From positions 1,922,001 to 1,986,000 of the forward strand of contig NZ_CP097800.1 of NCBI RefSeq assembly GCF_000612545.2: a DNA stretch of 64,000 bases. Direction: 5' to 3'. The notes under the pieces are model-generated. The model had not been told where the DNA came from. It was given only the letters and a program-made list of their open reading frames with translations, and made no database searches. The position numbers were made by a program, and so were the translations under genes. Every line of letters starts with the position of its first letter. Within the stretch, counting starts at the first letter, position 1. This document shows positions 10,777 through 34,086 of the stretch, piece after piece. The DNA comes from Streptomyces sp. PCS3-D2 (GTDB lineage Bacteria > Actinomycetota > Actinomycetes > Streptomycetales > Streptomycetaceae).

Positions 10777-10818
10777 GGGGCCGGCCCCGCAGTGCCGGGC
10801 GGCCGGCCGCCGAACGCG

Positions 10819-11760
10819 TCAGTCGCGCATGAAGTACCGCGGACCCTCCAGGGCTGCCCTGGTGGCCTCGGGAAGGGGCTCCACGGGTCGTTCCAGGGGC
10901 GGCAGGGCGCGCAGGGCCTCCCAGGCCACCGCCTGTCGGCGCAGGTCTCCACGGACCTTCTCGGCGAGTTTGCGGGTGTCGCGGCGGTTCATGACCGCTC
11001 CGACCGCCGCGCCCACCATGAACGGCATGAGGTTCGGCAGGCTGCGGAACATCCGCTTCATGATCTGCTGGCGCAGTTCGCGCTTCATCTGCCCGCCGAG
11101 CGCGGCGTTCAGCGTGGTGGGCTTAGTGAGGTCGACCCCGCGCTCTTCCGTCCACGCGGTCAGGTAGGCGAACGTCCGCTCCCTGAGGTTGCCGGGCGGC
11201 CGCTGGCCGTAGACCTCGTGGAGCTCCGCGACGAGCTTCAGCTCGATCGCCGCGACTCCGGTGATCTCCGCCGCGAGCTCGGCGGGCATCGCGGGCGGCA
11301 CGGGCAGCATGGCCGCCGCGCCGATGCTGGCGCCGACGGTCGCCGAGGCGGCGGTGGCGCCCGCGATCAGCTTGTCGGCGAGCTGCTCGGGTCCGAGGCC
11401 GGGGAACTGCGCGCGCAGCGTCGCGAGGTCACGGACCGGGACGCGCGGAGCGTTCTCGATGATCCTGTCGGTGACGTAGAGGGCGGCGCCGCGCACGCCT
11501 TCGCCGCCCTTGCGCACTCCGTTCCTGACCGCTTGCAGCCGGCGGCTCCCGCCACCGCGCCGGGACCCCTCGCCGGACTCCGCGACCGGCGCCGCCGAAG
11601 CCACGTCGGAGGGAGCGGCGAGCGCCGCACTGGCGGAGTCGCCGGGGGCGGCTTCGAGACCCGTCTCCGGGTCCGTGGTCGCCGCCTGCGTCTCCGCCGG
11701 ATCACCCTGCTTTCGGAAGACGCGCTTCCGAAAGGGTGTCGAGCCAGTCACGGCCGACAC
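10819..11760 (-). CDS. Conserved actinobacterial hypothetical, possible EcsC-like membrane-associated protein
   Basis: A 313-residue protein. The first 75 residues are Ala/Gly/Ser-rich and probably disordered. The rest is well folded with a small-residue hydrophobic segment (GATAASATVGASIGAAAMLPVPPA) and a second near PFMVGAAVGAVMNRRDTRKL. The AAEITGVAAIELKLVAELHEVYG stretch recalls EcsC-family proteins, but I cannot confirm this. It starts 3 bp after the DUF4193 gene and is presumably co-transcribed. Confidence 0.75.
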   Translation of the reverse strand: MSAVTGSTPFRKRVFRKQGDPAETQAATTDPETGLEAAPGDSASAALAAPSDVASAAPVAESGEGSRRGGGSRRLQAVRNGVRKGGEGVRGAALYVTDRIIENAPRVPVRDLATLRAQFPGLGPEQLADKLIAGATAASATVGASIGAAAMLPVPPAMPAELAAEITGVAAIELKLVAELHEVYGQRPPGNLRERTFAYLTAWTEERGVDLTKPTTLNAALGGQMKRELRQQIMKRMFRSLPNLMPFMVGAAVGAVMNRRDTRKLAEKVRGDLRRQAVAWEALRALPPLERPVEPLPEATRAALEGPRYFMRD

Positions 11761-19574: not shown

Positions 19575-20360
19575 TCAGGAGGCGCTCGGTGACGGCGGCG
19601 TGCTGCCCTCGGCGCCCGGGGTCGGCACCGGGTCCGGTGCCGACGGCGTCGGGGTGGGCGCCGGTCCGTGCGTCGGCACCGACGGGCCGGGCGCCGGCTC
19701 GCCGGAGCGCGACGGCCCGGGGTCCACGCTCGGGCTGCGGCTCCCGCCCGGACGGGAGGGGTTCGGGGAGCCGCCCGGGCCGGGGGTGTCGGCGCCGCTC
19801 CCCCGCTCGTCCTCCCCACCGGCCGGACCGCGTCGGGACGGGGCGGGGCGCTCCTCGCCGGCCTTGCGGGTTCCGCCGGAGAAGAGGGTGCCGCCGTCGC
19901 TGCTGACGGAGGTGCCTGCCATCGCCTCGTAGGTGCCGAGGCCGCCGATGGCGACGGCGAAGGCCGCGCCGGAGGCCACCGCGGTGCGCTTCCATCCGCG
20001 CATCCGGGTGCCGTGCACGGTGGGCCGCCCGAACTCCTCCGCCGCCCCGGCGTCCGCCGCCCCGGGGTCCGCCGCCCCCTCCTGCCCGCGGGGCGGCGGT
20101 ACCTGACGGGTCTTCGGCCGGGTGCTGCCGCGCAGCTGGTCGCCGGTACGCCGGAAGAGGTGCTGGATGACGGGTCCGCCGGCGGTGGCGACGACGCTGA
20201 CCACCCCGGCGCCGAGGATGGTTCCGTAGACGCCCATCGTGGACGCGAGCAGGGCGGCCGCGACGGTGGCGAGGGAGGATCCGGCGACCTGGGCCACGCT
20301 CAGGTCGAGTTTCCTTCCCGCCGGTTCGGTCCCGGCGCCACCCGTCGTCTTCTGACCCAT
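19575..20360 (-). CDS. Membrane protein with a long Pro/Ser/Gly-rich tail
   Basis: A 261-residue protein of unknown function. One or two hydrophobic segments (about residues 25-60) are followed by a polar linker and a second membrane helix (GAAFAVAIGGLGTYEAMAG). The last 110 residues are low in complexity (PSRPGGSRSPSVDPGPSRSGEPAPGP...) and likely extracellular. ATG 20360 is preferred over the ATG two codons upstream because AGGGG is spaced 7 nt from it. Confidence 0.7.
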   Translation of the reverse strand: MGQKTTGGAGTEPAGRKLDLSVAQVAGSSLATVAAALLASTMGVYGTILGAGVVSVVATAGGPVIQHLFRRTGDQLRGSTRPKTRQVPPPRGQEGAADPGAADAGAAEEFGRPTVHGTRMRGWKRTAVASGAAFAVAIGGLGTYEAMAGTSVSSDGGTLFSGGTRKAGEERPAPSRRGPAGGEDERGSGADTPGPGGSPNPSRPGGSRSPSVDPGPSRSGEPAPGPSVPTHGPAPTPTPSAPDPVPTPGAEGSTPPSPSAS

Positions 20361-20888
20361 CGCCATCCCCTGTGTGCCCGACCTCTCGTGTCTTCTGCTC
20401 TTTCAGCAGTTACTGACAGCTGAGCGAAGGGGATAGTTCCGTTTCGGGTGATTCTGTGAAGCAGGACACCCGCGCCCGGATGACGACCGCTGGTGGGAAC
20501 CGACAGCGGGCAGCCGAACACGCGCCGCCCGGGGAAAGTTCGGCGGCGCGGCGGTCTCCCCAGGTGGCCCGAATGGAGTACTGTGGCGAGCCCTGGGTCT
20601 GTCCTTCCTTTCGGTTGTCCGGATCCGGGAGAGGGGGCCGGCTGACGGAAAGCGGCACTCGAAGACCGGTGATGTCGCGACATTGCACGGGCCCTGCTGC
20701 GCACGGTAACCATGTGGTCACTGTGCGTGCCCAACAGGTAACCGTGCCATAACGGCGATCAAGGGCGCATGCCCGACACGCCGGTTTAACTCGGCAAGGT
20801 TGTGGCAGGCTGCACCCGGGCAGGCCACACTCGACTAGCGGAAGCAGCGACGCACGTGACGTCGGCAGGCACCACCCGGGAGGTCCCC
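20361..20888. other. About 520-bp divergent intergenic region before sepH
   Basis: No gene is supported; a long minus-strand frame here has a cysteine/proline/arginine-rich composition unlike any protein and runs over the sepH start. The segment must contain the promoters of the membrane-protein gene (-) and sepH (+). The last 180 bp before sepH are less GC-rich, with stretches such as CGGTTTAACTCGG, which fits a promoter zone. Confidence 0.55.
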
Positions 20889-21914
20889 ATGCCCGAACTG
20901 CGTGTCGTGGCCGTCTCCAATGACGGCACACGACTGGTGCTCAAGGCTGCGGACAGCACGGAGTACACGCTTCCGATCGATGAGCGGCTTCGAGCTGCCG
21001 TACGCAACGACCGCGCACGCCTGAACCAGATCGAGATCGAGGTCGAGAGCCACCTCCGCCCCCGTGACATCCAGGCCCGGATACGAGCCGGTGCCACCGC
21101 GGAGGAGGTCGCCCAGCTCGCCGGCATCCCCGTCGACCGCGTGCGCCGCTTCGAGGGCCCGGTGCTCGCCGAACGCGCCTTCATGGCCGAGCGCGCCCGC
21201 AAGACCCCGGTGCGCCGCCCCGGCGAGAACACCGGGCCGCAGCTCGGCGAAGCCGTGCAGGAGCGCCTGACCCTGCGTGGGGCCGAGAAGGACTCCGTCC
21301 AGTGGGACTCCTGGCGCCGCGACGACGGCACCTGGGAAGTCCTCCTGGTCTACCGGGTCGTCGGCGAGCCGCATTCGGCGAGCTGGACCTACGACCCGCC
21401 GCGCCGGCTGGTCGTGGCCGTGGACGACGAGGCCCGCTCGCTCATCGGCGAGTCGGAGGACCTGCCGGCCGCGCCGGAGCCGAGCTTCCCGTTCGTCCCG
21501 AGGATCGCGCGCCTGCCGCGCGACCGGCCGCTGGATCGCACCCTGGACCGGCAGCTGGAGCGGGTCGAGCCCCGGCCGACGCCCGTCCCGGAGCCGGAGG
21601 AGGAGCGGGACACGCTGACCAGCCTGCTGGAGGCGGTACCGAGCTTCCGCGGCGACATGGTCGTGCCGGAACGCCCCGATCCGACGGACACGGAAGCCGA
21701 GGCAGAGGAGCCGCCGGCCCCGGCCGCCTCGGCGGGCGCGGGCGCCGCGTACGCCGACGTCCTGATGCCCCGTACGGTGGCGGGCCACCGCGACCGACTG
21801 ACGGGCACCACCGACCGGCAGGCCGAGGCCGACGGGGTCCGGCCCGGGCGCCGTGCGGCGGTGCCGAGCTGGGACGAGATCGTCTTCGGCACCCGGCGCA
21901 AGAAGCAGGAGTAG
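20889..21914 (+). CDS. sepH: SepH, cell-division protein that acts on FtsZ
   Basis: A 341-residue DUF3071 protein. The N-terminal domain (MPELRVVAVSNDGTRLVLK...) contains a helix-turn-helix-like motif (about residues 55-90: RPRDIQARIRAGATAEEVAQLAGI), which in S. venezuelae mediates FtsZ binding. A beta-rich segment (DSVQWDSWRRDDGTWEVLLVY) and a long acidic/proline-rich disordered tail ending FGTRRKKQE follow. SepH stimulates FtsZ assembly during sporulation septation. ATG 20889 follows GGGAGGTCCCC; the longer upstream ATG adds unconserved residues. Confidence 0.93.
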   Translation: MPELRVVAVSNDGTRLVLKAADSTEYTLPIDERLRAAVRNDRARLNQIEIEVESHLRPRDIQARIRAGATAEEVAQLAGIPVDRVRRFEGPVLAERAFMAERARKTPVRRPGENTGPQLGEAVQERLTLRGAEKDSVQWDSWRRDDGTWEVLLVYRVVGEPHSASWTYDPPRRLVVAVDDEARSLIGESEDLPAAPEPSFPFVPRIARLPRDRPLDRTLDRQLERVEPRPTPVPEPEEERDTLTSLLEAVPSFRGDMVVPERPDPTDTEAEAEEPPAPAASAGAGAAYADVLMPRTVAGHRDRLTGTTDRQAEADGVRPGRRAAVPSWDEIVFGTRRKKQE

Positions 21915-21919
21915 CCCCC

Positions 21920-21946
21920 CCGGGGCCGGGTGGCACCCGGCCCCGG
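21920..21946. terminator. Hairpin between convergent sepH and sulfurtransferase genes
   Basis: A 12-bp perfect stem (21920-21931 with 21935-21946; left arm CCGGGGCCGGGT) and a 3-nt loop, positioned between the two stop codons. Confidence 0.7.
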
Positions 21947-21951
21947 CCCGG

Positions 21952-22797
21952 CTAGCTGGGGTCCGGACCCGTGGCGACCGGGCGGGCCGGGTCCGTGCAC
22001 CAGTGCGACCAGCTGCCCGCATAGAGGTCGGACTCGATGCCGGCCACCTCCAGGGCGAGCACTTCATGGGCTCCGGAGACCCCCGATCCGCAGTACACGC
22101 CCACCGCGGTCCCTTCGGAGGCCCCGAGCGCCTCGAACCGGGCCCGCAGCGCGTCCGCCGGCAGGAAGCGGCCGTCGGGACCCACGTTCTCGGTGGTCGG
22201 GGCCGACAGCGCGCCGGGGATGTGCCCGCCCACCGGGTCGATCGGCTCGACCTCGCCGCGGTACCTCTCCCCCGCACGGGCGTCCAGGAGCACGCCTTCG
22301 CGCGCCCGCTCCGCCGCCGCGTCGGCGTCGAGCAGCCCGAGCAATCCGGGGGTTGGCTTGAAATCGCCCTCGTCCGGAATCACCCGTTCGGCGGTGAGCC
22401 CGCCTCCCGCCGCCGTCCACGCGGCCAGGCCCCCGTCCAGGACTCGCACGTTCGGGTGACCCGTCCAGCGCAAAAGCCACCACGCGCGGGCCGCCGCCCA
22501 GCCCTGCCCGCCGTCGTACACGACCACAGGCACGTCCGCGCAGACCCCGGCCCTGCGCATCGCCGCGCCGAAGGCCTCCGCGTCCGGGAGCGGGTGGCGC
22601 CCTCCCGCCCCGGCCGGACCTGCCAGTTCACGGTCGAGGTCGACGTACGCGGCGCCCGGCAGGTGCCCGGCCTCGTACGCGGGCCGCTGGTCGGGGCCGC
22701 CGAGCTGCCAGCGGACGTCCAGCAGGACCGGCGGCCGGGCACCCGCCAGCTCGTTCCTCAGTTCGGCAACGGAAAGGATCGCAGTCTTCGCACTCAT
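21952..22797 (-). CDS. Rhodanese-type sulfurtransferase (thiosulfate/3-mercaptopyruvate)
   Basis: About 281 residues with two tandem rhodanese domains. The N-terminal one is inactive (no Cys; VVYDGGQGWAAARAWW). The C-terminal one has the catalytic loop Cys in YCGSGVSGAHE. It transfers sulfur from thiosulfate or 3-mercaptopyruvate to cyanide or thiol acceptors. The loop CGSGVS is closer to the mercaptopyruvate type (CGxGxT/S) than to classical rhodanese (CRKGVT). A start three codons upstream is also possible. Confidence 0.9.
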   Translation of the reverse strand: MSAKTAILSVAELRNELAGARPPVLLDVRWQLGGPDQRPAYEAGHLPGAAYVDLDRELAGPAGAGGRHPLPDAEAFGAAMRRAGVCADVPVVVYDGGQGWAAARAWWLLRWTGHPNVRVLDGGLAAWTAAGGGLTAERVIPDEGDFKPTPGLLGLLDADAAAERAREGVLLDARAGERYRGEVEPIDPVGGHIPGALSAPTTENVGPDGRFLPADALRARFEALGASEGTAVGVYCGSGVSGAHEVLALEVAGIESDLYAGSWSHWCTDPARPVATGPDPS

Positions 22798-22972
22798 GGC
22801 GGCCATCTTCCTCCCCGCCCGGCACCGGCGTCACAGGACCGTCATCAGCGGGGCACCCGGTTCCGGTCAACTCCGTTCCGGACCACCGGAATGCGGCGCG
22901 GTCGGGGAGCGCCGGGTCCGCCGGAGTGGAACCATCAGCACCGGTGACGGCACGACGGAGGAGACGGCAGAC

Positions 22973-23758
22973 ATGACCGAGGCAGCGGAAGCGACCCGGC
23001 GCACCCCCGGCACCCCGTGCTGGGTGAGTCTCATGGTGCACGGCCTCGGGAGCACCGAGGACTTCTACGCCGACCTGTTCGGATGGGAGTACGTGCCCGG
23101 GCCCGAGCAGCTCGGGCCGTACGTCCGTGCCGTGCTGGACGGACACGAAGTGGCCGGGATCGGCGAGATGCCGCCGGACGGCCATCTTCCGACGGCGTGG
23201 ACCACGTACCTGGCCACGGACGACGCGGACGCCAGCGCCGAATCCGTCCGGGCCTGCGGCGGCACGGTCGCGGTGGGGCCGCTGGACGCCGGCATCGCGG
23301 GGCGGGTGGCCATCTGCTCGGACCCGCTGGGGGCGGTCTTCGGGCTGTGGCAGGCGCAGGACCACCTGGGCGCCCGGCCGCACGGCGGGCCGGGTACCCC
23401 CGTCTGGCACGAGCTGATCACCCAGGACACCTCGACGGTCGGCAAGTTCTACGAGCACGTCTTCGGCCACGAGGCGCAGACCCACGTCACCGCCTCGGAC
23501 GACTTCGACCACCTCACCCTGAACCTGGCGGGCCGGCCCGTCGCCGCCGTGCACGGCGTGGGCCGTTCGCTGCCGCACGACCGGGGGCCGCACTGGCTGG
23601 CCTATTTCGAGGTGGCGGACACCGACGCGGCCGCGAGCCGGGTCGAGGAGCTCGGCGGGCGCGTCGTCGAGCCGCCCCGGGAGGGCATGCGCGGGCGGCA
23701 GGCCACGGTCACGGACCCGGAGGGGGCGGTCTTCGCCCTCGTACGCTCGCGGCCCTGA
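22973..23758 (+). CDS. Two-domain VOC (glyoxalase/bleomycin-resistance fold) protein
   Basis: A 261-residue protein of two VOC domains: residues about 12-120 (WVSLMVHGLGSTEDFYADLFGWEY... DPLGAVFGLWQ) and 138-258 (VWHELITQDTSTVGKFYEHVFG... DPEGAVFALVRSRP). The second domain keeps His and Glu positions used for metal binding. ATG 22973 follows GGAGGAGACGG. Such proteins resemble actinobacterial hydroxylases/CFP32-type glyoxalase-like proteins; the substrate is unknown. Confidence 0.85.
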   Translation: MTEAAEATRRTPGTPCWVSLMVHGLGSTEDFYADLFGWEYVPGPEQLGPYVRAVLDGHEVAGIGEMPPDGHLPTAWTTYLATDDADASAESVRACGGTVAVGPLDAGIAGRVAICSDPLGAVFGLWQAQDHLGARPHGGPGTPVWHELITQDTSTVGKFYEHVFGHEAQTHVTASDDFDHLTLNLAGRPVAAVHGVGRSLPHDRGPHWLAYFEVADTDAAASRVEELGGRVVEPPREGMRGRQATVTDPEGAVFALVRSRP

Positions 23759-23776
23759 GCGCCGCCGCTGCGGGAG

Positions 23777-25039
23777 TCAGCCGGCGGGCCGTGCCGGCGG
23801 CCGCCCGAAGTGCCGTGCGGTGGGCACCAGTGCAGCCGCCGCGGGGACCAGGAAGCAGGCCGCGGCGCAGACGCCGAGGACCGGGGTCGCCCCGAAGACC
23901 TCGATGGCCGGGGCGATGAGCGCCAGGCCCACCGGGGCCAGGCCGTAGGACACGAGGAAGTCCAGCGAGGAGACCCGGGCGAGCTTGTCCGGGGCGACTT
24001 CGCGCTGGGTGGCGGTGAACCAGGGCACGTTGAACAGCTCGATGCCGATCCCGGCGACCGCGTAGGCGCCGACGACCACGCCCGGGTGGACCGGGAGCAC
24101 CAGGCTCAGCGGCGCGAAGCCGTAGGCGGCCAGGCCCGCGAAGGCGGCCCAGCCCTGGGAGCGCGGCCGGAAGCGGGCGGTGACCAGGGCCCCGCCGAGC
24201 GCGCCGACCGTGTAGGCGGTCATGGCGGCGGCCAGCACCCACTCGGTGCCGTAGCGGTCACGGCTGATCAGGGGCAGGGCGACGCTGGTGGCGGAGTAGC
24301 CGAGCGCGATCACGGCGACCAGGCCTGCGAGTCCCGCGAGGAACCAGGGGTGGCGGCGGGCCTCGCGTATGCCGTCGACGAACTCGGCGCGCAGCGAGGC
24401 GCGCTGCGGCCGGTCCGCGTCCGGGGCGCCGGACGCGGACCCCCGGCCCGGCAGGAGCGCGGCGACCAGCCAGAGCAGGCCGATGCCGAGCAGCAGGGTC
24501 GCGACATCGGTGAAGGCCGCGAGCAGCGCGGTCAGGGCCGGCCCGGCCAGTGTGGAGGCGCGCACGGCCAGGGTCGTCGCGGCGTTGGCCTGCTGCCTGC
24601 GGCCGGCGTCGACGACCTCGGCCGTGAGTGCCTGGAAGGCGGGGCGGCAGGCTCCCTGCCCGGCGCCGGCCAGGGCTGCGGCCGCGGTCATCAGCAGCAG
24701 GGAGCGCCCCAGTCCGGCGGCGAGGAGGGGCGCGGCGGCCGCGGCGGCCAGGGCCGACCACAGGACGACGGCCCGCCGGGAGTGGCGGTCGGCCAGCACC
24801 CCGCCGACGGCCACGGCGGCGAGGAAGCCGGCGGTGCGCGCCGCGAGGACGAGGCCGAGGCCGGCCGCGCCCAGTTCGCGCTCCAGGACCGCGAGGCCCA
24901 GTACGAAGGGCAGGGCCCAGGTCGCGAGCCCGGAGGCGGTGGTGCCAGCCCACAGGCGCAGGAAGGCGACGTCGCGCAGGACGGAACGCGTCTGCTGTGG
25001 ACGGCTCCTGGGCTCCGTGGGGGCAGGTGTGGTCGCCAC
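23777..25039 (-). CDS. MFS exporter divergent from a metal-type ABC importer
   Basis: A 420-residue major facilitator with 12 predicted helices, of the drug/siderophore-exporter subfamily (RLWAGTTASGLATWALPFVLGLAVL at the N-terminus; GVLADRHSRRAVVL after helix 2). A longer ATG at 25060 abuts the Zur-like box. The GTG at 25039 is preferred because GATGAGGAGC lies 9 nt upstream of it, so the longer form would start with its own ribosome-binding site as codons. Its position opposite an uptake system suggests export of the ligand which that system retrieves. The substrate is inference. Confidence 0.82.
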   Translation of the reverse strand: MATTPAPTEPRSRPQQTRSVLRDVAFLRLWAGTTASGLATWALPFVLGLAVLERELGAAGLGLVLAARTAGFLAAVAVGGVLADRHSRRAVVLWSALAAAAAAPLLAAGLGRSLLLMTAAAALAGAGQGACRPAFQALTAEVVDAGRRQQANAATTLAVRASTLAGPALTALLAAFTDVATLLLGIGLLWLVAALLPGRGSASGAPDADRPQRASLRAEFVDGIREARRHPWFLAGLAGLVAVIALGYSATSVALPLISRDRYGTEWVLAAAMTAYTVGALGGALVTARFRPRSQGWAAFAGLAAYGFAPLSLVLPVHPGVVVGAYAVAGIGIELFNVPWFTATQREVAPDKLARVSSLDFLVSYGLAPVGLALIAPAIEVFGATPVLGVCAAACFLVPAAAALVPTARHFGRPPARPAG

Positions 25040-25060
25040 GATGTGGTGCTCCTCATCCAT

Positions 25061-25081
25061 TAATGAAAACGATAACCATTA
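25061..25081. promoter_or_regulatory. Zur-like (zinc uptake regulator) operator in a divergent promoter
   Basis: A 21-bp imperfect palindrome: TAATG, 11 bp, CATTA. The left half reads TAATGAAAAC and the right GATAACCATTA. It matches about 17 of 21 positions of the actinobacterial Zur box TAATGAAAA-TGA-TTTTCATTA as I remember it, and does not resemble the DmdR iron box. It is a conspicuous AT-rich island in very GC-rich DNA, placed between the MFS gene (-) and the ABC operon (+), and could control both. Binding is not shown. Confidence 0.68.
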
Positions 25082-25155
25082 CAGTACTCTGTGGACGCGG
25101 CACTCCCGCCCGGTGCACGCCCCTGCCCCCATCCACGCCGCCTGACGGAGGACCC

Positions 25156-26187
25156 ATGCGCCATCGCACCCGAACCGGCCTCGCCCTGACCCTCGTTCTC
25201 GCATCCGCGGCCGCCGCCGGCTGCTCGGCCGGCGGCGGCACGGACCGCAGGGCGGAGGGCACGCCCTCCGCCCCTACCACCGTCACCAGTTGCGGCGGAC
25301 GGCTGTCCTTCGACGGCCCCCCGAAGCGCACCGTCGCCCTGGACCAGTCCTCCACCGAGACCCTGCTGGAACTGGGCCTCCACGACCGGATGGCCGGAAC
25401 CGCCAATCTCAAGACGAAGATCCCCGCGCAGTACCGGGACGCGTACGCGAAGGTCCCGGTCATCGCCCCCAAGATCGCGACGGGTGAGCAACTGCGTGCC
25501 GCCACACCGGATTTCGTCGTGGCCGGCTCCACCGACCTCTATACGAAGGACCGGGCGGGCACCCGGGAGGAGCTGGCGGCGCTGAAGGTCCCCGCCTTCG
25601 TCAGCGCCGTGGACTGCCCCCAGCACAACGAGCCCGGGAAGTCCCCCTTCGAACTGCTCTTCTCCGACTACGAGGCGCTGGGCCGGATCTTCGGCGCCGA
25701 GGAACGGGCCGCCGCCCTCGCCCGGGAACAGCGGGCCGCCGTCGCCGAGGCCGGCCGGAGCGCGGCCGGGGCCGGGGCCGGGGCCGGGAAGCAACCCACC
25801 GTCGTCTACCTCTACTCGGTCTTCAACGGCATGCCGTACGTCGCCGGGCGGACCGGACTGCCCAGCGAGATGAGCCGGATCGTCGGCGCGAAGAACGCCT
25901 TCGACGACGTGGAGGAGGACTGGCCTGAGGTGTCCTGGGAGGAAGTCGCCAGGCGCGACCCGGACTTCATCGTGATCGGCGACCTGTCCGAACGCGGCCG
26001 GCCCGGTGACAGCGCCGCGGAGAAGCGCAGGGCGATGGCGGAGGACCCGGTGGTGTCCCGGCTGGCGGCGGTGCGCGGCAACCGGATCGTCGAGGTGCCC
26101 GGCATCGAGCTGGACCCCTCCGTGCGCTCCGTGCACACGCTGGGCCTGCTGGCGGGCGCGATGAAGGACCTCGGATATGCCCGCTGA
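25156..26187 (+). CDS. ABC transporter substrate-binding lipoprotein (FepB/BtuF type)
   Basis: A 343-residue secreted lipoprotein. The signal peptide ends in a lipobox with C23 (LASAAAAGC). The mature protein is a class-III periplasmic-binding fold (RTVALDQSSTETLLELGL, VVAGSTDLYTKD, PFELLFSDYEALGRIFG, VVYLYSVFNGMPYVAGRTGL, DPDFIVIGDL). Such proteins capture metal-chelator complexes, heme or cobalamin. ACGGAGGACCC precedes the ATG. First gene of the importer operon; its end overlaps the permease start by 11 bp. Confidence 0.9.
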   Translation: MRHRTRTGLALTLVLASAAAAGCSAGGGTDRRAEGTPSAPTTVTSCGGRLSFDGPPKRTVALDQSSTETLLELGLHDRMAGTANLKTKIPAQYRDAYAKVPVIAPKIATGEQLRAATPDFVVAGSTDLYTKDRAGTREELAALKVPAFVSAVDCPQHNEPGKSPFELLFSDYEALGRIFGAEERAAALAREQRAAVAEAGRSAAGAGAGAGKQPTVVYLYSVFNGMPYVAGRTGLPSEMSRIVGAKNAFDDVEEDWPEVSWEEVARRDPDFIVIGDLSERGRPGDSAAEKRRAMAEDPVVSRLAAVRGNRIVEVPGIELDPSVRSVHTLGLLAGAMKDLGYAR

Positions 26188-27340
26188 CGTGGCCGGCCGG
26201 GCCGGACCGGCGGGACCGGCTGTGGCGAAGGGCCTGTCGACGGGCGCGTGCGCCGACCTGCTGCACCCCTCGGCCCGCACGCCGGGGGCGGCCGTCACCG
26301 CGCCGGCCCCGGCGCCCGCGGCGTCCCCCCGCGGACCCGCGCGGGCCGGACCGCTCCTCGCCTCGGCCCTCGTCCTGGCCGTCTCGGTGGCGGCCGCCAC
26401 CCGTGTCGGCACCGCCGAGGTGGGGTGGACCGACCTGGCCCGGGTGCTCGGGTCGCGGCTCGGGCTGGACGTCGAGGCGCTGCCGCCGCTGCTGGACTCG
26501 CTCGTGTGGGACCTGCGGCTGCCGCGGGTCCTGATGGCGGCCCTGGTCGGTGCCTCGCTGGCGGTCTGCGGCACGGTGCTCCAGGCGGTCACGCGCAACG
26601 CGCTCGCCGACCCGTACCTGCTCGGGGTCTCCTCGGGTGCCGGAGCAGGCGCGGTCGCCGTGGTCGTCCTCGGTGCGGGCGCGGGCACCCTCGGGATCAC
26701 CGGCGGCGCGCTCGCCGGGGCGCTGCTCGCCTTCGCGGGCCTGCTGCTCCTGCTGCGCCGCACCGGGCTGGACTCGGTCCGCATCGTGCTGACCGGCGTG
26801 GTCGTCGGCCAGCTCTTCACCGCGCTGACCTCGCTCGCCCTGATGGCCTCGGCCGACGCCGACACCACCCGCGCCGTCACCCACTGGCTGCTGGGCTCGC
26901 TGGCCCCGGCCCGCTGGGACGCCGTGCTGGTCTGCGCGATCGTCACGCCCCTGGGGCTGGCCGCAGCCTGGCTGTGCGCGAACGCCCTCGACGGGCTCGC
27001 CTTCGGCGCGGACACCGCCGCCTCCCTGGGGATCGGCGTACGGCGCACCCGGATGCTGCTGCTCGTGGTGACGGCCGCGCTCACCTCGGTCGCGGTGGCC
27101 ACCGTCGGCGCCATCGGTTTCGTGGGGCTGATCGTGCCGCACGGGGTGCGTTTCCTGGCCGGACCGCTGCACCGGGCGCTGCTGCCGCATGCGGCGCTCG
27201 CGGGCGCGGTGTTCCTGGTGTGGACCGACGCCCTGGCGCGGGTGGCCTTCGCCCCCCGGGAGGTGCCCGTCGGTGTGATCACCGCGCTCATCGGCGTCCC
27301 GCTGTTCCTGCTCGTCCTGCGCCGGAGGGGGGAGCTGTGA
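26177..27340 (+). CDS. ABC transporter permease, FecCD/BtuC family
   Basis: A 387-residue membrane subunit. After an Ala/Pro-rich extension of about 55 residues, not normal for the family, it shows the FecCD hallmarks LRLPRVLMAALVGASLAVCGTVLQAVTRNALADPYLLGVSSGAG and, near the C-terminus, GFVGLIVPHGVRFLAGPLHR. About nine or ten helices. It probably acts as a homodimer because only one permease gene is present. Confidence 0.92.
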   Translation: MPADVAGRAGPAGPAVAKGLSTGACADLLHPSARTPGAAVTAPAPAPAASPRGPARAGPLLASALVLAVSVAAATRVGTAEVGWTDLARVLGSRLGLDVEALPPLLDSLVWDLRLPRVLMAALVGASLAVCGTVLQAVTRNALADPYLLGVSSGAGAGAVAVVVLGAGAGTLGITGGALAGALLAFAGLLLLLRRTGLDSVRIVLTGVVVGQLFTALTSLALMASADADTTRAVTHWLLGSLAPARWDAVLVCAIVTPLGLAAAWLCANALDGLAFGADTAASLGIGVRRTRMLLLVVTAALTSVAVATVGAIGFVGLIVPHGVRFLAGPLHRALLPHAALAGAVFLVWTDALARVAFAPREVPVGVITALIGVPLFLLVLRRRGEL

Positions 27341-28149
27341 GGATCAGCGCCGAGGGGCTGAGCTGGTCGGTGTCGGGCACTCCCGTCGTCCGCGGGATCG
27401 GACTGGACATCGCACCAGGGGAGACCGTGGGGCTGCTCGGCGCCAACGGCTCGGGCAAGTCCTCGCTGCTGCGCTGCCTGGCCGGGCTGCGGGTGCCGGA
27501 CGCGGGCACGGTCCGCTACGACGGCGTGCCCGTGGGGGACCTCGGCCCCCGGGCGATCGCCCGCCGGGTCGCCTTCGTCGCCCAGGACTCCGGCCTCGAC
27601 ACCGACCTGCGCGTCGCCGACGTCGTCGGGCTGGGCCGGACCCCCTTCCGCGACCGCTGGCGCGGCCCGGACGCGCACGACCGGGCCGTGGTCGCCGCCG
27701 CGCTCGACCGCGTCGGACTCGGCGCGCTCGCCGGGCGCCCCTGGCGGAACCTGTCCGGCGGCGAGCGTCAACGGGCCCACATCGCCCGCGCCTTCGCCCA
27801 GCAGCCCTATGCACTGCTCCTCGACGAACCCACCAACCACCTCGACGTGAAACATCAGTTGGAACTGATGGAGCTGCTCGCCGCCACCGACCAGACGGTC
27901 CTCGTCGCCCTGCACGACCTGACTCTGGCCGCCCGCCACTGCGACCGGCTGCTGCTCGTACACGACGGCGCGCTGGTCGCCTCCGGCGCCCCCGACACCG
28001 TCCTGACCTCCGAGAACCTCGCCCGGGTCTTCGAGGTGGACGCCGAACTCCGCACCGACGCCCTGGGCAGGCCGTCGGTCACCTACCGCGGTCCCCTCCG
28101 GGGCACCGCTCCCGCCTCCCCGTCCGCTCTCCGACAAGGAACCCGATGA
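27337..28149 (+). CDS. ABC transporter ATP-binding protein, FepC/BtuD type
   Basis: A 270-residue ATPase: Walker A GANGSGKS (residues 35-42), Q-loop VAQDS, signature LSGGERQRAHIARAF, Walker B LLLDEPTNHLD and H-loop ALHDL. The GTG start overlaps the permease stop (GTGA) after GGAGGGGGGAG. It completes a three-subunit importer and is itself overlapped by the next gene (ATGA), placing the downstream enzymes in the same translational unit. Confidence 0.95.
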   Translation: MRISAEGLSWSVSGTPVVRGIGLDIAPGETVGLLGANGSGKSSLLRCLAGLRVPDAGTVRYDGVPVGDLGPRAIARRVAFVAQDSGLDTDLRVADVVGLGRTPFRDRWRGPDAHDRAVVAAALDRVGLGALAGRPWRNLSGGERQRAHIARAFAQQPYALLLDEPTNHLDVKHQLELMELLAATDQTVLVALHDLTLAARHCDRLLLVHDGALVASGAPDTVLTSENLARVFEVDAELRTDALGRPSVTYRGPLRGTAPASPSALRQGTR

Positions 28150-29039
28150 CGACACCGACGCGACCCCAGCCCCAGCCCCGGCCCGAGCCCCGCCCCCTGA
28201 GGACCCCCGCTCCCGGGCCCGCAGCCGCACCGGCGGCCTCCGTCGACGCCCTGATCGAGGCCGTGCTGGCCGGCGAACACGGCCCGCAGCCCGGCGGACT
28301 GGTGGCGACCAGCGTGTTCTGGATCCACCACGGAACCCGGCTGGCCGGCGGCGACACCACCTACCTCAATCAGTACGTCCTGGTCCGCCTCGGCGGCTCC
28401 TTCGGCGGCTGCGCCTTCGAGGCCGGCGAAATCGACCCGGCGGTCTGCCACGACGCCTCCGGCGCTCCGCTCGACGTCCTGCTGCGCGAGGCGCCGCACC
28501 CGCTGCGGATCGCCGCGCTCGACGCCTACCTGGCCGGGCGGCGCCCGCACCGCGACTCCGGCGCGGAGGCGGTCACCCTGCCCGCCGGCACCCCCGAGGT
28601 GCGCGCGCTGGCCCGCGACGCGGCGATCGCCGGGCTGCTGGACATCGACCGCGGCGCCGCGGTCGGCCTCATCGGCGTGGTGAACCCGCTGATCGCGGCG
28701 ATCCGCGAGCGCGGCGGCGAACCGCTGCCCTGCGACTTCAACCTCAGGACCACCCAGTGGGGCGACCCGGTCACCAGCGACATGCACGAGGTCCTGGAGC
28801 GCGCCGACGCCGTCGTCGCCACCGGCATGACCCTGAGCAACGGCTCCTTCGACGTCATCCTGGACCGCTGCCGCACCCGTGGAATCCCGCTCGTCGTCTA
28901 CGCCCAGAGCGGCAGCGCCGTGGCCCGTGCCTTCCTCGGTGCCGGGGTGACCGCCCTGTCCGCCGAGCCGTTCCCCTTCTCCCAGTTCAGCGCCGACCCG
29001 ACCACGCTGTACCGCTACCGGACGGCGGCCCCGGCGTGA
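28146..29039 (+). CDS. DUF364-type Rossmann-like (putative heavy-metal chelation) protein
   Basis: A 297-residue protein. A Pro-rich N-terminus (about 35 residues) precedes an N-terminal alpha/beta domain. The C-terminal DUF364 pattern follows: IGVVNPLIAAIRERG, PCDFN, EVLERADAVVATGMTLSNGSFDVILDRC, then VYAQSGSAVARAFLGAGV. DUF364 members often neighbour metal-uptake ABC systems, and Pfam lists the domain as putative heavy-metal chelation. No biochemical role is established. The ATGA overlap with the ATPase gene and GTGA overlap with the kinase gene make a coupled block. Confidence 0.75.
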   Translation: MTTPTRPQPQPRPEPRPLRTPAPGPAAAPAASVDALIEAVLAGEHGPQPGGLVATSVFWIHHGTRLAGGDTTYLNQYVLVRLGGSFGGCAFEAGEIDPAVCHDASGAPLDVLLREAPHPLRIAALDAYLAGRRPHRDSGAEAVTLPAGTPEVRALARDAAIAGLLDIDRGAAVGLIGVVNPLIAAIRERGGEPLPCDFNLRTTQWGDPVTSDMHEVLERADAVVATGMTLSNGSFDVILDRCRTRGIPLVVYAQSGSAVARAFLGAGVTALSAEPFPFSQFSADPTTLYRYRTAAPA

Positions 29040-30145
29040 TCCCGGCGACCCGCCGCGACTCCCCCGCCGCCGACCGCCACGGAGCCGGGCACGCGCCCTG
29101 CCACCACGGCGAGATCCTCCAGGGCGTCTTCCTCGACGCCGCCGGGCGCCGCTGCGCCGGCCTGGTCACCCTGCCCATGGGCGGCCCGGGGAGCCGGGCC
29201 GCGTTCACCCGGCGGCCCGGCACCCCGCCGGAGCGGCTGGGCGTGCGGCCCGGCGACCGTACGAAGGCCGCGCGCGCGGCGGCCCTGGCCGTCGAGGAGT
29301 GCTCCCGGCGGTGCGGCGAGCCGCCCTGTGGCGGGGAGCTGCGGCTCTCCGGAGACATCCCGGTGGGGCTGGGCATGGGCAGTTCCACCAGCGACGTCAT
29401 CGCGGCGGTCCGCGCGGTGGCGGACTCCTACGGGATGCGGCTGCCGGCCGCCGCCGTCGCCCGGCTCGCGGTCCGCGCCGAGCTGGCCTGCGACCCCCTG
29501 ATGCTCGACACCCGCCCGGTGCTGTTCGCCCAGCGCGAGGGGCGGGTGCTGGAGGTGCTCGGTCACCGCCTGCCGCCCCTCGTGGTCGTGGGCTGCGCGC
29601 TCGGCGGGGGCGCGCCCGTGGACACCCTCTCGCTCCCGGCCCGGGCGCTCGACGACCACGACGTACGCGCCTTCGAGCGGCTGCGGGTGCTGCTGCGGCG
29701 GGCCGTGGCCACCGGCGACGCCGCCCTGCTCGGCCGGGTGGCGACGGCGAGCGCCCGGCGCGGGCAACGGCTCCTGCGCCACCCGGAGTTCGACGCACTC
29801 GTCGGCATCGCCGGGCGGCTGGAGGCCGTAGGGGTCCAGATCGCGCACAGCGGCGCGGTCGCCGGGCTGCTGCTGGATGCGGCCGCCCCGGGGCTGCGCC
29901 ACCGGATCCGCGGCTGCGTGCGGGCCCTGGAGAGCGAAGGCATCCCCGTCACCCGCACGTTCACGACCTTCCCGGCCCCTCCCGGCTGCTCCGCCCCGCC
30001 AGGCCGGGCGGACCGGGCGGACCGGCCAGACCTTCCGAACGTCCCGACGACCAAGGAGTCCCCGAGTGGACCAGCACATCGCGGAGGCCATCGGCCGACC
30101 GGACCTGATACGCCTCGACGACCGGCTCGTCTGCCTGCGCTTTGA
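29036..30145 (+). CDS. GHMP-family kinase, PduX-like (small amino-acid or alcohol kinase)
   Basis: A 369-residue kinase. The GHMP motif 2 is PVGLGMGSSTSDVIAA (ATP loop), very close to L-threonine kinase PduX (PVGKGxxSSTAD). The N-terminal CHHGEILQGVF also recalls that family, and the motif-3 region is VQIAHSGAVAGLLLD. The last 60 residues (PAPPGCSAPPGRADRADR... onward) look unconstrained, and the reading frame runs 80 bp into the next gene. Likely reaction: ATP-dependent phosphorylation of the hydroxyl of serine, threonine or a similar compound, possibly to activate it for the PLP enzyme downstream. The substrate is inference. Confidence 0.78.
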   Translation: MIPATRRDSPAADRHGAGHAPCHHGEILQGVFLDAAGRRCAGLVTLPMGGPGSRAAFTRRPGTPPERLGVRPGDRTKAARAAALAVEECSRRCGEPPCGGELRLSGDIPVGLGMGSSTSDVIAAVRAVADSYGMRLPAAAVARLAVRAELACDPLMLDTRPVLFAQREGRVLEVLGHRLPPLVVVGCALGGGAPVDTLSLPARALDDHDVRAFERLRVLLRRAVATGDAALLGRVATASARRGQRLLRHPEFDALVGIAGRLEAVGVQIAHSGAVAGLLLDAAAPGLRHRIRGCVRALESEGIPVTRTFTTFPAPPGCSAPPGRADRADRPDLPNVPTTKESPSGPAHRGGHRPTGPDTPRRPARLPAL

Positions 30146-31064
30146 GACCATGAAGGTGGTCTCCGCCCTCGCCGCGGTCCGCCACCTCCTCGACACGGGA
30201 GCGGTGCGGCCCGGCGACACCCTGCTGGACAGCTCCAGCGGGATCTACGCGTACGCCCTCGCGCTGGCCTGCCACCGGCACGGCATGCGCTGCCACATCG
30301 TCGGCTCGACGACGGTCGACCGCACCCTGCGCACCCAACTCGCCGTCCTCGGCGCGACCCTGGAGCAGATGGAGCCCTGCAGCGACCTGAAACTGGACCA
30401 GAAACGGCGCGTCGAGCGCGTACACGAGATCCTCGCCGAACACCCCAGCCACCACTGGATGCGGCAGTACCACGACGACGTCCACTACCTGGGCTACCGG
30501 GCCGTGGCCGACCTGATCCGCCGGTCGGCGCGCGGTGCGGAACTCACCGTCGTCGGCGGGGTCGGCTCGGGGGCCTCGACCGGAGCCCTCGCCCACTACC
30601 TGCGCGAGGAGGCGCCCGGTACCGAGCTGGTCGGCGTACAGCCCTTCGGCAGCGTCACCTTCGGTGCGGAGCACGTCGCCGACCCTGAGATCATCATCGC
30701 GGGCATCGGCAGCTCCATCCCCTTCGGCAACGTCCGCCATGCGTCCTACGACGCGCTCCACTGGATCTCGTTCGACGCCGCCCTCGCCGGCGGCGTCGAC
30801 CTGCTGCGCCGGCACGCGGTGTTCGCCGGGCTGTCCAGCGGGGCCGGCTACCTCGCCGCCCGCTGGGAGCGCGACCGCTCGCCCGGTCGCACGGTCCTCT
30901 TCGTCGCCGCCGACACCGGTCACCGCTACGTGGACACCGTGTACGCGCGGCACCGCGAGGCCGTCCCCATCGGCTCGCTGGCTCCCCGCCAGGTCACCCG
31001 CCGGGAGGAACTGGCCCTGCCCTGGTCCCGGATGGACTGGAACCGGGCGGACGCCCCCGCGTAG
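30066..31064 (+). CDS. PLP-dependent enzyme of the cysteine-synthase fold (SbnA-like candidate)
   Basis: A 332-residue fold-type II PLP enzyme. K30 (RFETMKVVSALAAV) is in the Schiff-base position, and GSGASTGAL is the phosphate-binding loop. In place of the usual SGNTG substrate loop it has DSSSGIYAYAL, so the conserved Asn that contacts PLP is missing. The GTG start at 30066 follows AAGGAGTCCCC. Together with the kinase just upstream it could perform a beta-replacement on an O-phospho-amino acid, as SbnA does in staphyloferrin B synthesis. That is hypothesis, not seen in sequence. Confidence 0.75.
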   Translation: MDQHIAEAIGRPDLIRLDDRLVCLRFETMKVVSALAAVRHLLDTGAVRPGDTLLDSSSGIYAYALALACHRHGMRCHIVGSTTVDRTLRTQLAVLGATLEQMEPCSDLKLDQKRRVERVHEILAEHPSHHWMRQYHDDVHYLGYRAVADLIRRSARGAELTVVGGVGSGASTGALAHYLREEAPGTELVGVQPFGSVTFGAEHVADPEIIIAGIGSSIPFGNVRHASYDALHWISFDAALAGGVDLLRRHAVFAGLSSGAGYLAARWERDRSPGRTVLFVAADTGHRYVDTVYARHREAVPIGSLAPRQVTRREELALPWSRMDWNRADAPA

Positions 31065-31368
31065 GGATGCGGCGGGCTGCGGACCCGCTTCCCGGGGCGT
31101 GCGGTCCGGAGCCGATGGTGGTGCGCCGGCCCCGGTCTTCCCGCTCCATCCAGGCCGGGTGGAGCGGGAAGACCGGGGCCCGCACACGGCGTCCGTACGC
31201 CGTCCACGGAGCCTGGCGGCGACAGTCCGAAGGTGCGAAGGCGCTCCGAGGGTGCTGCAATGAGCTGGAGTGCTGCCCCTGCACCGTGCGGCGGGGAATG
31301 CGCCGCACGGAAACAGGCGGCGGCCCACGGCCGGTCACCCCCCACCGGACAGCACGTGAGGAGCCGTG
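31065..31368. other. 304-bp intergenic region after the metal cassette
   Basis: No ORF is supported. The left half holds a very strong terminator (31128-31180). The right half carries a smaller GTGCGGCG/CGCCGCAC hairpin near 31287-31308 and the ribosome-binding site of the next gene (GAGGAGCC). This marks the boundary between the metal cassette and the stress-gene run. Confidence 0.6.
31128..31180. terminator. 21-bp perfect hairpin, terminator of the metal cassette
   Basis: The arms at 31128-31148 and 31160-31180 are perfectly complementary over 21 bp (left arm begins GGCCCCGGTCTTCCCG), with an 11-nt loop. No T-tract follows. It lies 63 bp after the PLP-enzyme stop and is the longest perfect stem I found in the window. 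Confidence 0.85.
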
Positions 31369-31803
31369 ATGAGCGACGACATCGAAACGATGGGGCCCGT
31401 CGACTACCTGATCGTCGAGTTCCCCGGCAACAGGATGACCGGTGAGGGCTTCCCCCTGCTCGTCGATCTGGTGGAACGCAACATCATCCGCATCCTCGAC
31501 CTGGTCTTCGTCCGCAAGGATGCTGACGGTTCGGTCGTCGCACTGGAACTGAAGGACGCCGGCGGCGGTGAGATGGACCTCTCCGTCTTCGAGGGCGCGG
31601 CCTCCGGCCTGCTGGGCCAGGACGACATCGACGAGGCCGGTGCCGCTCTGGAAGCGGGCAGCTCGGCCGGCATCCTGGTGTACGAGAACGTCTGGGCGGC
31701 GCCGTTCGCCCGCGCCCTGCGGCGCGGCGGCGCGCAGTTGGTGGCCGGCGGCAGGATTCCCGTCCAGGCGCTGCTGGCCTCGCTCGACGCCATGGAGGCG
31801 TGA
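31369..31803 (+). CDS. DUF6325/DUF1269-like small protein
   Basis: A 144-residue soluble protein: MGPVDYLIVEFPGNRMTGEGFPLLVDLVERNIIRILDLVFVRKD opens the family pattern, and the C-terminus contains a VYENVWAAPFARALRRGGAQLVAGGRIP motif. The family is common in actinobacteria beside SHOCT-domain proteins and stress genes. GAGGAG precedes the ATG; a GTG one codon earlier is also possible. Function unknown. Confidence 0.75.
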   Translation: MSDDIETMGPVDYLIVEFPGNRMTGEGFPLLVDLVERNIIRILDLVFVRKDADGSVVALELKDAGGGEMDLSVFEGAASGLLGQDDIDEAGAALEAGSSAGILVYENVWAAPFARALRRGGAQLVAGGRIPVQALLASLDAMEA

Positions 31804-31925
31804 GCGCGGACCGCGGGCCGCGGGCGGCAGCAGTCCCGACTCCCCGTCCCGCGGCACATGACGACCTGCGGACCGGACGCGCGTTGCGGCCGTCCGCCCT
31901 TCGGCAACCTGGGAGATGACGCCCC

Positions 31926-32231
31926 ATGCCCGGACTTCTTCGTGGAGTCGCCCGCACCGCCGTCGTGGCCGGGACGGCCACCGCGGTCTCCAACCGCGTA
32001 TCGCGGCGGCAGGCGGGCCGCTGGTCCCAGCAGGAGTACGAACAGCAGCAGGCCGCGGCGCCGCCGCCCCCGCCGCAACCGGCCCAGGCCGCTCCTCCCC
32101 CTCCGCCGCCCCCCGGCGACGACATGAGCAGCAAGCTCGACCAACTGCAGAAGCTGGGCGAGTTGAAGGCCCAGGGGCTGCTGACCGAGGAGGAGTTCGC
32201 CCAGCAGAAGGCCAGGCTCCTCGCCGGCTGA
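31926..32231 (+). CDS. SHOCT-domain protein
   Basis: A 101-residue protein with a basic N-terminus (MPGLLRGVARTAVVAGTATAVSNRVSRRQ), a Gln-rich then polyproline linker (about residues 37-63), and a C-terminal SHOCT domain (KLDQLQKLGELKAQGLLTEEEFAQQKARLL). SHOCT domains are short oligomerisation modules. It lies between the DUF6325-like and ClC genes on the same strand. Confidence 0.85.
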   Translation: MPGLLRGVARTAVVAGTATAVSNRVSRRQAGRWSQQEYEQQQAAAPPPPPQPAQAAPPPPPPPGDDMSSKLDQLQKLGELKAQGLLTEEEFAQQKARLLAG

Positions 32232-32269
32232 CCGGCCGCTCGGTGGCGGGGGACGGGAAGGGATGACCC

Positions 32270-33631
32270 ATGACGGCACCGCGCACCCCGGCGCCCGCCG
32301 AGCCGCCCCCGGAGGGCGACCGGCTGCGGGACATGCTGCGCACGCCGGGCTACCTCAAGCTCCTCGTCCTGTGTGCGCTCATCGGCATCCCGGTCTCCCT
32401 GGCGGCGTTCTGGTTCCTGGTCGCCCTGCACGAGCTGGAGCACCTGGTGTGGGCCGATCTTCCGGAGGCGCTCGGCTGGAGCGGCCCACCCTGGTGGTGG
32501 CCGGTGCCGCTGCTGCTGCTGGCCGGCGTCCTGGTCGGGCTGGTGGTGACCCGCATGCCCGGCGCCGGCGGCCACATCCCCGCCTCGGGGCTGCACGCGG
32601 GAGGGGCCACCTCGGCCGCGCTGCCCGGCGTCATCCTGGCGGCGGTGCTCAGCCTGCCGCTGGGTGCGGCCCTCGGCCCGGAGGCCCCGCTGATCGCACT
32701 CGGCGGCGGGCTCGCGCTGCTGTTCCGGGACTTGGCCCAGGCGCCCACGACCCCGCAGAGCACGGCGATCCTGGGCGCGGCGGGGGCGGCCGCGGCCATC
32801 TCCGCGATCTTCGGCAACCCGCTGATCGGCGCCGTGCTGCTGATGGAGGTGGCCGGGGTGGGCGGACCGCAACTCTTCGCGATCATGCTGCCGGCGCTGC
32901 TGTCCAGCGGGGTCGGCGAGCTCGTGTTCACCGGCTTCGGCCGCTGGACGGGCCTGGCGACGGGCAGCCTGAAGCTGGACCTGGACGGCCCCTTCCCCCG
33001 CCTCGACGCCCCCGACGTGCTGTGGTCACTGCTGCTGGCGGTCGTCCTGGGCGTCTTCATGCACCTGGTGCTGGCCGGCGGCCGGTTCGCCTCCGTGTAC
33101 GTGGCCAGGCGGCCCGTGGCCCACACGGCCGTCTGCGCCGTGGCCGCCGGTGCCGCCGCAGCGCTCTACGCGCTGGTCACCGGCAACTCCCCGGTGGACG
33201 TCGCCTCGTCGGGCCAGGCCGTCATGGCCGACATGGCCGCCGATCCGCAGGCCTGGGGCATCGGGGCGCTGATCGCGGTCCTGCTGTGCAAGGGCGCGGC
33301 GTACGCGCTCTGCCTGGGCAGCCTGCGCGGCGGGCCGGTCTTCCCCGCCCTGTTCCTGGGAGCGGCCGCGGGTCTGCTGTTCGCGCCACTGCCGGGGCTG
33401 GGCGTCATTCCGGGCCTCGCGGCCGGCATGGCCGCCGCCACCACGTGCGCGCTGCGGATCCCGGTCAGCAGCGTGGTGCTCGTCGTGCTCCTGCTCGGCA
33501 GCGGCGCGATGATCCCCGTGATCATCCTCGCGTCCGTGGTCGCCTTCGTGGTCACCGAACTGCTGCCGCCCGGGCCCGAGGTGGCGCCAGTGGGCCTGCC
33601 GGTCGCGACCCGCGGGGCCGGAGCGAAGTGA
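32270..33631 (+). CDS. ClC-family chloride channel/antiporter
   Basis: A 453-residue membrane protein. The selectivity-filter regions appear as GAGGHIPASGLHAGG (in place of GSGIP) and GAALGPEAPLIALGGG (in place of GREGP), and RGGPVFPALFLGAAAG is the third motif. ClC proteins exchange chloride for protons or conduct anions, often under acid or osmotic stress. The diverged first motif makes the transported ion uncertain. It belongs to the same-strand stress run. Confidence 0.88.
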   Translation: MTAPRTPAPAEPPPEGDRLRDMLRTPGYLKLLVLCALIGIPVSLAAFWFLVALHELEHLVWADLPEALGWSGPPWWWPVPLLLLAGVLVGLVVTRMPGAGGHIPASGLHAGGATSAALPGVILAAVLSLPLGAALGPEAPLIALGGGLALLFRDLAQAPTTPQSTAILGAAGAAAAISAIFGNPLIGAVLLMEVAGVGGPQLFAIMLPALLSSGVGELVFTGFGRWTGLATGSLKLDLDGPFPRLDAPDVLWSLLLAVVLGVFMHLVLAGGRFASVYVARRPVAHTAVCAVAAGAAAALYALVTGNSPVDVASSGQAVMADMAADPQAWGIGALIAVLLCKGAAYALCLGSLRGGPVFPALFLGAAAGLLFAPLPGLGVIPGLAAGMAAATTCALRIPVSSVVLVVLLLGSGAMIPVIILASVVAFVVTELLPPGPEVAPVGLPVATRGAGAK

Positions 33632-33645
33632 GGAAGGAGCACGTC

Positions 33646-34086
33646 ATGGCAGATCACGTGAGCGGAGTCCGGCCGAAGGCCGCTGCGCCGGCCGCCGGCA
33701 GGGCCGGCTTGGGCGCCCTGGACGGCTGGCTGTACTTCGCCGGGTTCCTGATGGTCTTCGGCGGCCTGGCGACGTTGTCCTCGGGCATCTCCGCGATCGC
33801 CGGGGACGAGGTCTTCCTCTCCACCCCGGACTACGCCTACGCGTTCGGCCTCACGGGCTGGGGCTGGGTCCAGCTCGTCCTGGGCGTCGTCCTCTTCTGC
33901 GCCGGAATCGCCGTGCTCCGGGGCGCCCTGTGGGCCCGAGTCGTCGGCATCGTGTTCGCGGGTCTCAGCATGGTCTCCGGCTTCATGTGGCTTCCGTACG
34001 CGCCGTTGCGGACCCTGGTACTCCTGGCCGTCGACGGCCTGATCGTCTGGGCGCTGTGCACGGCCCCCCGTCCGACGAAGGACTGA
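33646..34086 (+). CDS. DUF7144-like four-helix membrane protein
   Basis: A 146-residue protein with four membrane helices (LYFAGFLMVFGGLATLSSGI, WGWVQLVLGVVLFCAGIAVL, WARVVGIVFAGLSMVSGFMW, RTLVLLAVDGLIVWALC). The spacing and the WARVVGI motif fit the DUF7144 family of actinobacteria. ATG 33646 follows GAAGGAGC. Unknown function; a frequent member of stress-gene clusters. Confidence 0.75.
   Translation: MADHVSGVRPKAAAPAAGRAGLGALDGWLYFAGFLMVFGGLATLSSGISAIAGDEVFLSTPDYAYAFGLTGWGWVQLVLGVVLFCAGIAVLRGALWARVVGIVFAGLSMVSGFMWLPYAPLRTLVLLAVDGLIVWALCTAPRPTKD

Follow-up and report, generated by a model that had tools for sequence, protein, structure and literature searches.

A DUF364 protein and an SbnA-like enzyme in a predicted Zur-controlled zinc metallophore operon of Streptomyces

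A 64,000-nt stretch of DNA from Streptomyces sp. PCS3-D2 (contig NZ_CP097800.1, positions 1,922,001 to 1,986,000; hereafter the window) harbors a compact, divergently transcribed locus of seven genes around a single palindrome (Table 1). An earlier reading of the letters alone, referred to here as the original prediction, had described a major facilitator superfamily (MFS) exporter gene facing an ATP-binding cassette (ABC) importer across a Zur-like palindrome, and a chain of overlapping genes for the importer ATPase, a DUF364 protein, a kinase and a pyridoxal 5'-phosphate (PLP) enzyme. All parts of the divergent arrangement were recovered, and both the Pfam families and the overlaps agree with the gene chain. 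Adjacent genes of the operon overlap by 4-11 nt and the kinase and PLP genes by 80 nt, the latter overlap being present, according to the called starts, in 40 of 60 related loci with the same kinase. The annotated ATG of the MFS gene directly adjoins the palindrome; its true start is possibly a GTG at 25039, 21 nt inside, behind an AGGAG-like stretch recognized by eye. As had also been predicted, neither a nonribosomal peptide synthetase (NRPS) nor an IucA/IucC-type NRPS-independent siderophore (NIS) synthetase was found by Pfam in the seven genes and four neighbors (rhodanese, glyoxalase, DUF6325 and chloride channel).

Table 1. Genes and other features of the locus, in window coordinates.
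Feature	Position	Strand	Match or remark
MFS gene, predicted exporter	23777-25060	-	PF07690 109 bits, PF05977 30 bits; divergent to the operon
Zur-type palindrome TAATGAAAACGATAACCATTA, shared promoter region	25061-25081		13/15 to the published motif
Substrate-binding protein of the importer (Peripla_BP_2)	25156-26187	+	PF01497 101.7 bits
FecCD-type importer permease	26177-27340	+	PF01032 290 bits
Importer ATPase (ABC_tran)	27337-28149	+	PF00005 114 bits; top NCBIfam models EitC and F420-0, both below cut-off
DUF364 protein, predicted core enzyme	28146-29039	+	PF04016 42.7 bits, cut-off 23
GHMP-family kinase (GHMP_kinases_N), presumed amino-acid hydroxyl kinase (Ser or Thr)	29036-30145	+	Pfam
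SbnA-like fold-type II PLP enzyme (PALP), presumed beta-replacement on O-phosphoserine	30066-31064	+	PF00291 103 bits
Terminator-like hairpin 3' of the operon	31121-31187	+	31-nt arms, 90% complementary, 5-nt loop

From sequence comparison, we consider it probable that this locus is a Zur-repressed operon for making, exporting and re-importing a small amino-acid-derived zinc metallophore without an NRPS or NIS synthetase. The palindrome TAATGAAAACGATAACCATTA agrees with 13 of the 15 fixed positions of the 21-bp actinobacterial Zur motif taaTGaNAANNNTTNtCANta, which is given, together with the S. coelicolor chromatin immunoprecipitation motif tGaNNatSatNNtCa, in PMC5472717. Twenty dinucleotide shuffles of the 64-kb window contained no site at 13/15 and one at 11/15; with up to three mismatches allowed, 0.01 matches are expected and one is observed, namely the palindrome, read on both strands. 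Two other modes of control were considered and rejected: there is no DmdR1/IdeR-type iron box within 2 mismatches in the window, and 20000-34000 yielded no Rfam match, and hence no riboswitch, at gathering thresholds.

The latter result, which extends to cobalamin riboswitches, also bears on a reading in which the locus serves corrinoid or cobalt salvage, through a BtuCDF-like importer and a threonine kinase for the cobalamin side chain. The importer does resemble BtuC, BtuF and BtuD at the domain level, and PduX is a GHMP kinase. However, the BtuC, BtuF and BtuD models all score below cut-off, Pfam finds no corrinoid enzyme among the seven genes and the promoter box is of the Zur type. We hold this reading to be very improbable.

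Conservation of the box was assessed in 80 loci carrying an orthologue of the PLP gene, re-annotated with a codon-usage gene caller (L numbers below are our locus labels). An MFS homologue was called in 67 of the 74 loci that encode DUF364, the other 7 being left out of the count, and this gene is preceded by a box scoring 11/15 or better in 65/67 cases, as compared with 10/654 for the other genes of the same loci, which served as a control. The two misses, L092 and L098, contain boxes of at least 12/15 by region scan, and we attribute both to the choice of gene start or gene copy. The gene opposite the MFS gene changes (substrate-binding protein, methyltransferase-like family f7, permease or DUF364) and the box persists. 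Across 30 loci selected by the presence of a box, the box carries a mean of 1.67 bits per column versus 0.54 and 0.88 in the flanks, the selection itself inflating the first value. A promoter box conserved to this extent would place the locus in the Zur regulon. In some loci the enzyme genes lie apart from the importer genes, which would suit an account where the box governs transport only and the operon ends in three enzyme genes with no bearing on it. Where the importer is elsewhere (L055, L065, L070 and L079), however, the box still stands before the enzyme genes, with the MFS gene facing f7 or DUF364, and we find this account scarcely credible.

Boxes of the same kind occur at zinc genes of the same genome. 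A ZnuA gene is followed by genes for an ABC ATPase, an ABC-3 permease and a FUR-family protein, presumably Zur itself, with two boxes at 12/15 and 11/15; a further 11/15 site in this stretch falls within a coding gene and appears fortuitous. Similarly, a zinc island (C1:1903085-1912574, L129) encodes a P-type ATPase, a second ZnuABC-like transporter, paralogues of ribosomal proteins L31, S18, L28 and S14 and two CobW proteins, and has two boxes, both at 12/15. A few kb from this island and ~43 kb from the window operon lies a second DUF364-PLP cluster (C1:1891081-1902338; L128 6082-17339) with ATP-grasp, epimerase, MFS, methyltransferase and Opp-type importer genes. Of the 74 DUF364 loci, 65 have both a called exporter gene and a called importer gene. 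Together with the box in 65/67 loci and the boxes at the zinc genes, this lends strong comparative support to the Zur-controlled metal acquisition originally proposed.

The probable chemistry is suggested by the PLP enzyme, whose nearest relatives include proteins of S. yangpuensis and S. virginiae, each 92% identical. SbnA, which makes N-(1-amino-1-carboxyl-2-ethyl)-glutamic acid (ACEGA) from O-phospho-L-serine and L-glutamate for staphyloferrin B, is its top PDB profile match (144 bits), and TIGR03945 (SbnA) is its best NCBIfam model. In PMC12414870, SbnA is described as carrying out a substitution of O-phosphoserine by glutamate, with Arg132, Tyr152 and Ser185 as selectivity residues. Counted by hand on the profile alignment, these correspond to R115, Y135 and G167 of the window enzyme. 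Among 114 PLP sequences (from the 80 loci and the window, plus 15 sequences of the class-level set and 18 of a further set of regions, including the second cluster type and NRPS-linked members), K30, R115, Q134, Y135 and G167 are invariant, the first four aligning with SbnA Lys47, Arg132, Gln151 and Tyr152. The PLP lysine and two of the three O-phosphoserine selectivity residues are kept in 114/114 sequences, a conservation that argues for the SbnA-type beta-replacement of the original prediction. The locus nevertheless differs from staphyloferrin B in that, by Pfam, the seven window genes include neither an SbnB-type partner nor an NIS synthetase, the box is zinc-type and not iron-type, and the kinase is of the GHMP type, which SbnI is not.

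The second constant component is DUF364. The window protein scores above the gathering score of the PF04016 profile and has the enolase-N-like plus Rossmann-like two-domain fold of the family. DUF364 and the SbnA-like PLP gene occur together in 74/80 loci; of the other six, one (L056) is a truncated contig and five belong to a cluster of another type. A class-wide scan of 394 genomes with a DUF364 alignment gave a match in 30, the window's own included, and in all 14 regions chosen from its 31 matches an SbnA-like gene accompanies DUF364. A box is present in 12/14, each within ~220 nt of a cluster gene start. Nine of the 14 belong to a second type, with ATP-grasp, DUF364, PLP, epimerase, MFS, methyltransferase, SBP5 and Opp-type genes (box in 7/9). 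Plasmid records agree, since a PLP partner and a box accompany DUF364 in 9/9. For example, a window-type operon is found on a plasmid of S. melanogenes, a species also among the 80 loci (L068), and a plasmid of Streptomyces sp. SGAir0924 carries a variant operon with a methyltransferase gene.

PLP loci devoid of DUF364 have no box near the PLP or kinase gene. Among 18 further regions with a PLP gene, 17 from one set of matches and one from another, 7 encode DUF364 and 5 of these have a box; across the remaining 11 a single 11/15 site was seen, at ~4.6 kb from the PLP gene. The five D-type loci among the 80 have no box. On plasmids, three kinase-PLP loci lack DUF364, and a box was seen only in L202, ~6 kb away, and not in L201 or L205. 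The box tracks DUF364, and on this comparison the predicted core of the system is DUF364 plus the PLP enzyme. DUF364-PLP operons were observed on actinomycete plasmids of Tsukamurella, Rhodococcus and Streptomyces (L203, L204, L206, L207 and L208), and given such plasmid operons the systems may move horizontally.

The kinase is a less constant component. Its profile picks up 67 called genes across all loci, the window among them, and no kinase was detected in 14/80 loci by a six-frame profile search confined to the locus DNA (L092 and L094 being short contigs). These 14 loci come from Lentzea, Saccharothrix, Actinokineospora, Nocardiopsis and three Streptomyces, and in them the PLP gene lies directly 3' of DUF364 or within ~130 nt. 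The fixed kinase-DUF364-PLP trio of the original prediction is ruled out by this count. Since primary metabolism makes O-phosphoserine, the kinase-less loci would fit this substrate better than O-phosphothreonine. The description of the kinase as PduX-like also had to be reduced to the GHMP family, whose N-terminal domain and fold the window protein has. Within Pfam the protein is matched by the general GHMP model alone. NCBIfam gives mevalonate, galacto-, shikimate and homoserine kinases, each with a score well under its cut-off, and at 1e-3 no PduX model, from a library that may not contain one. A second, partial kinase-like frame was seen 3' of the operon in one locus (L177 18303-18734).

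Adjacent GHMP kinase and SbnA-like genes are also seen in modules that include a lyase gene and presumably make 2,3-diamino acids. One such module, in Azospirillum, runs from a kinase through a cysteine synthase family protein, an ATP-grasp protein and a DMT transporter to an argininosuccinate lyase. Another, a Streptomyces cluster (L196, 3-16095), contains by Pfam an NRPS, a kinase, a PLP enzyme, an ATP-grasp protein, an argininosuccinate-lyase-type protein, an MFS protein and a phosphopantetheinyl transferase, which suggests that a diamino acid building block is made there. Gene sets similar to L196, the one member for which Pfam was read, were seen in L195 and L197-L199. Argininosuccinate-lyase-type enzymes split an aspartate adduct, leaving the diamino acid. 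The window operon differs from these modules in having neither lyase nor NRPS and in its DUF364 gene and Zur-type box; as no lyase is present, the adduct itself may be the ligand.

A candidate mechanism can be outlined from these elements. Zinc-loaded Zur would occupy the shared palindrome, as the conservation of the box suggests, and repress the MFS gene and the operon. At low zinc O-phosphoserine, or else O-phosphothreonine, would be supplied by the GHMP kinase; primary metabolism could stand in for this step, as the 14 loci showing no kinase suggest. From the phospho-amino acid the SbnA-like enzyme would form an aminoacrylate, and addition of an amine nucleophile would give a ligand of the N-(2-amino-2-carboxyethyl)-amino-acid type. 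The constant pairing suggests that DUF364 either carries out a further obligatory step on the PLP product or handles the metal complex. The ligand would be retained, with no lyase step following, and exported by the MFS protein, and the binding protein, FecCD permease and ATPase would return the zinc complex, as expected of their families. The metallophore interpretation of the original prediction is partly upheld in this form: the Zur box and the SbnA-type residues speak for it, and the fixed trio and the PduX-like assignment did not stand.

One alternative is that the product is a known aminopolycarboxylate, ethylenediaminedisuccinic acid ([S,S]-EDDS) or the related EDHA, made from a differently arranged set of genes, in which case the novelty would lie in the gene arrangement alone. 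EDDS of Amycolatopsis is likewise a small amino-acid-derived chelator, and PMC9252823 describes it as Zur-controlled with aspartate as precursor. Clusters for an 'aminopolycarboxylic acid metallophore' are known from genome mining, the one in PMC10920908 being assigned an iron (DmdR1) site. An SbnA-like beta-replacement would yield such a skeleton. The EDDS genes, however, encode lyase-type and other enzymes that this operon lacks, and neither DUF364 nor a GHMP kinase is known to be among them. We consider this alternative unlikely.

Zur-controlled uptake or salvage would account for the locus differently: a foreign chelate would be imported and its ligand processed or dismantled, or an intracellular zinc ligand would be made, and no metallophore of the cell's own would be exported. 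The 14 loci with no detectable kinase would suit this, and PMC2954201 reports DUF364 genes adjoining metal ABC transporters in many prokaryotes. Against it stand the MFS gene, called in 67/74 DUF364 loci with a box upstream in 65/67, and the tailoring genes (methyltransferase-like, TauD- or PhyH-type oxygenase, ATP-grasp and epimerase), which vary between loci as in biosynthetic clusters. Uptake or salvage alone thus appears rather improbable to us.

Beyond the single operon, we incline, with less assurance, to the view that DUF364 plus an SbnA-like PLP enzyme marks a novel, widely distributed class of actinomycete pathways for zinc metallophores under Zur control, in which a phospho-amino-acid beta-replacement and a DUF364-catalysed step would be diversified by a GHMP kinase, ATP-grasp ligase, epimerase, methyltransferase or 2-oxoglutarate oxygenase and served by FecCD or Opp importers. 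Several observations weigh against the metallophore reading or its SbnA-like chemistry. The TIGR03945 score (135.4 bits) is far below the SbnA equivalog cut-off of 349.95. The third selectivity position, Ser185 in SbnA, is Gly in 114/114 sequences, as in the S185G variant, and the SGN-loop asparagine is replaced by Ile, Thr or Val; the chemistry may therefore differ from that of SbnA, from which the window enzyme also departs in its shortened N-terminal part. The second DUF364-PLP cluster of the same genome has only a weak 10/15 box in front. DUF364 regions L167, L171, L184 (a short contig) and L186 show no box of at least 11/15, and in L183 only 48 nt separate the box from a divergent methyltransferase gene, with the PLP operon 0.8 kb off. 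Because DUF364-PLP pairs are accompanied by FecCD in some places and by an unrelated importer type, Opp, in others, the FecCD importer cannot be regarded as an invariant component. Finally, the homologous kinase-PLP pairs on plasmids of Mesorhizobium and Bradyrhizobium stand without any annotated lyase or transporter next to them.

Few small enzymes, an exporter plus ABC importer and zinc control are also features of the opine-type metallophores staphylopine and pseudopaline. In contrast to these, the operon has by Pfam no nicotianamine-synthase-like enzyme or opine dehydrogenase, and a PLP beta-replacement is predicted instead. DUF364 proteins have solved structures and, to our knowledge, no known reaction. 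The structures Dhaf4260 (3l5o) and PH1506 (3npg) represent DUF364/PF04016, and an SbnA-like PLP partner and Zur-type box as found here are not mentioned in the accessible part of PMC2954201. No account of a DUF364-PLP metallophore pathway was found among the PMC literature matches listed, a search that leaves most subscription papers outside. If the proposal is true, many Streptomyces and other actinomycetes would make zinc scavengers from clusters invisible to NRPS/NIS synthetase searches, DUF364 would gain a first, testable function, and DUF364, an SbnA-like gene and a Zur box together would provide a simple marker for metallophore mining.

Some accessory genes recur among the loci. The methyltransferase-like gene of family f7 (e.g. 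L055 6470-7207) is present in 27/80 loci; its label is weak, with a Pfam score of 19.3 bits against a cut-off of 23 and another member without a match, and one copy is annotated 'methyltransferase' in the public record. A TauD-like oxygenase (e.g. L069 3958-4665) is present in 15/80 loci, and L183 has a PhyH-like oxygenase gene (10521-11300) between the PLP and DUF364 genes as a separate variant. Lastly, in five loci (L104, L105, L107, L108 and L109) the PLP orthologue is accompanied by a divergent GHMP kinase, ATP-grasp, MFS and methyltransferase, and both DUF364 and a Zur-like box are missing. A family with a ferric-reductase-like member in L105 adjoins in four of the five, and this cluster type is possibly an iron counterpart.

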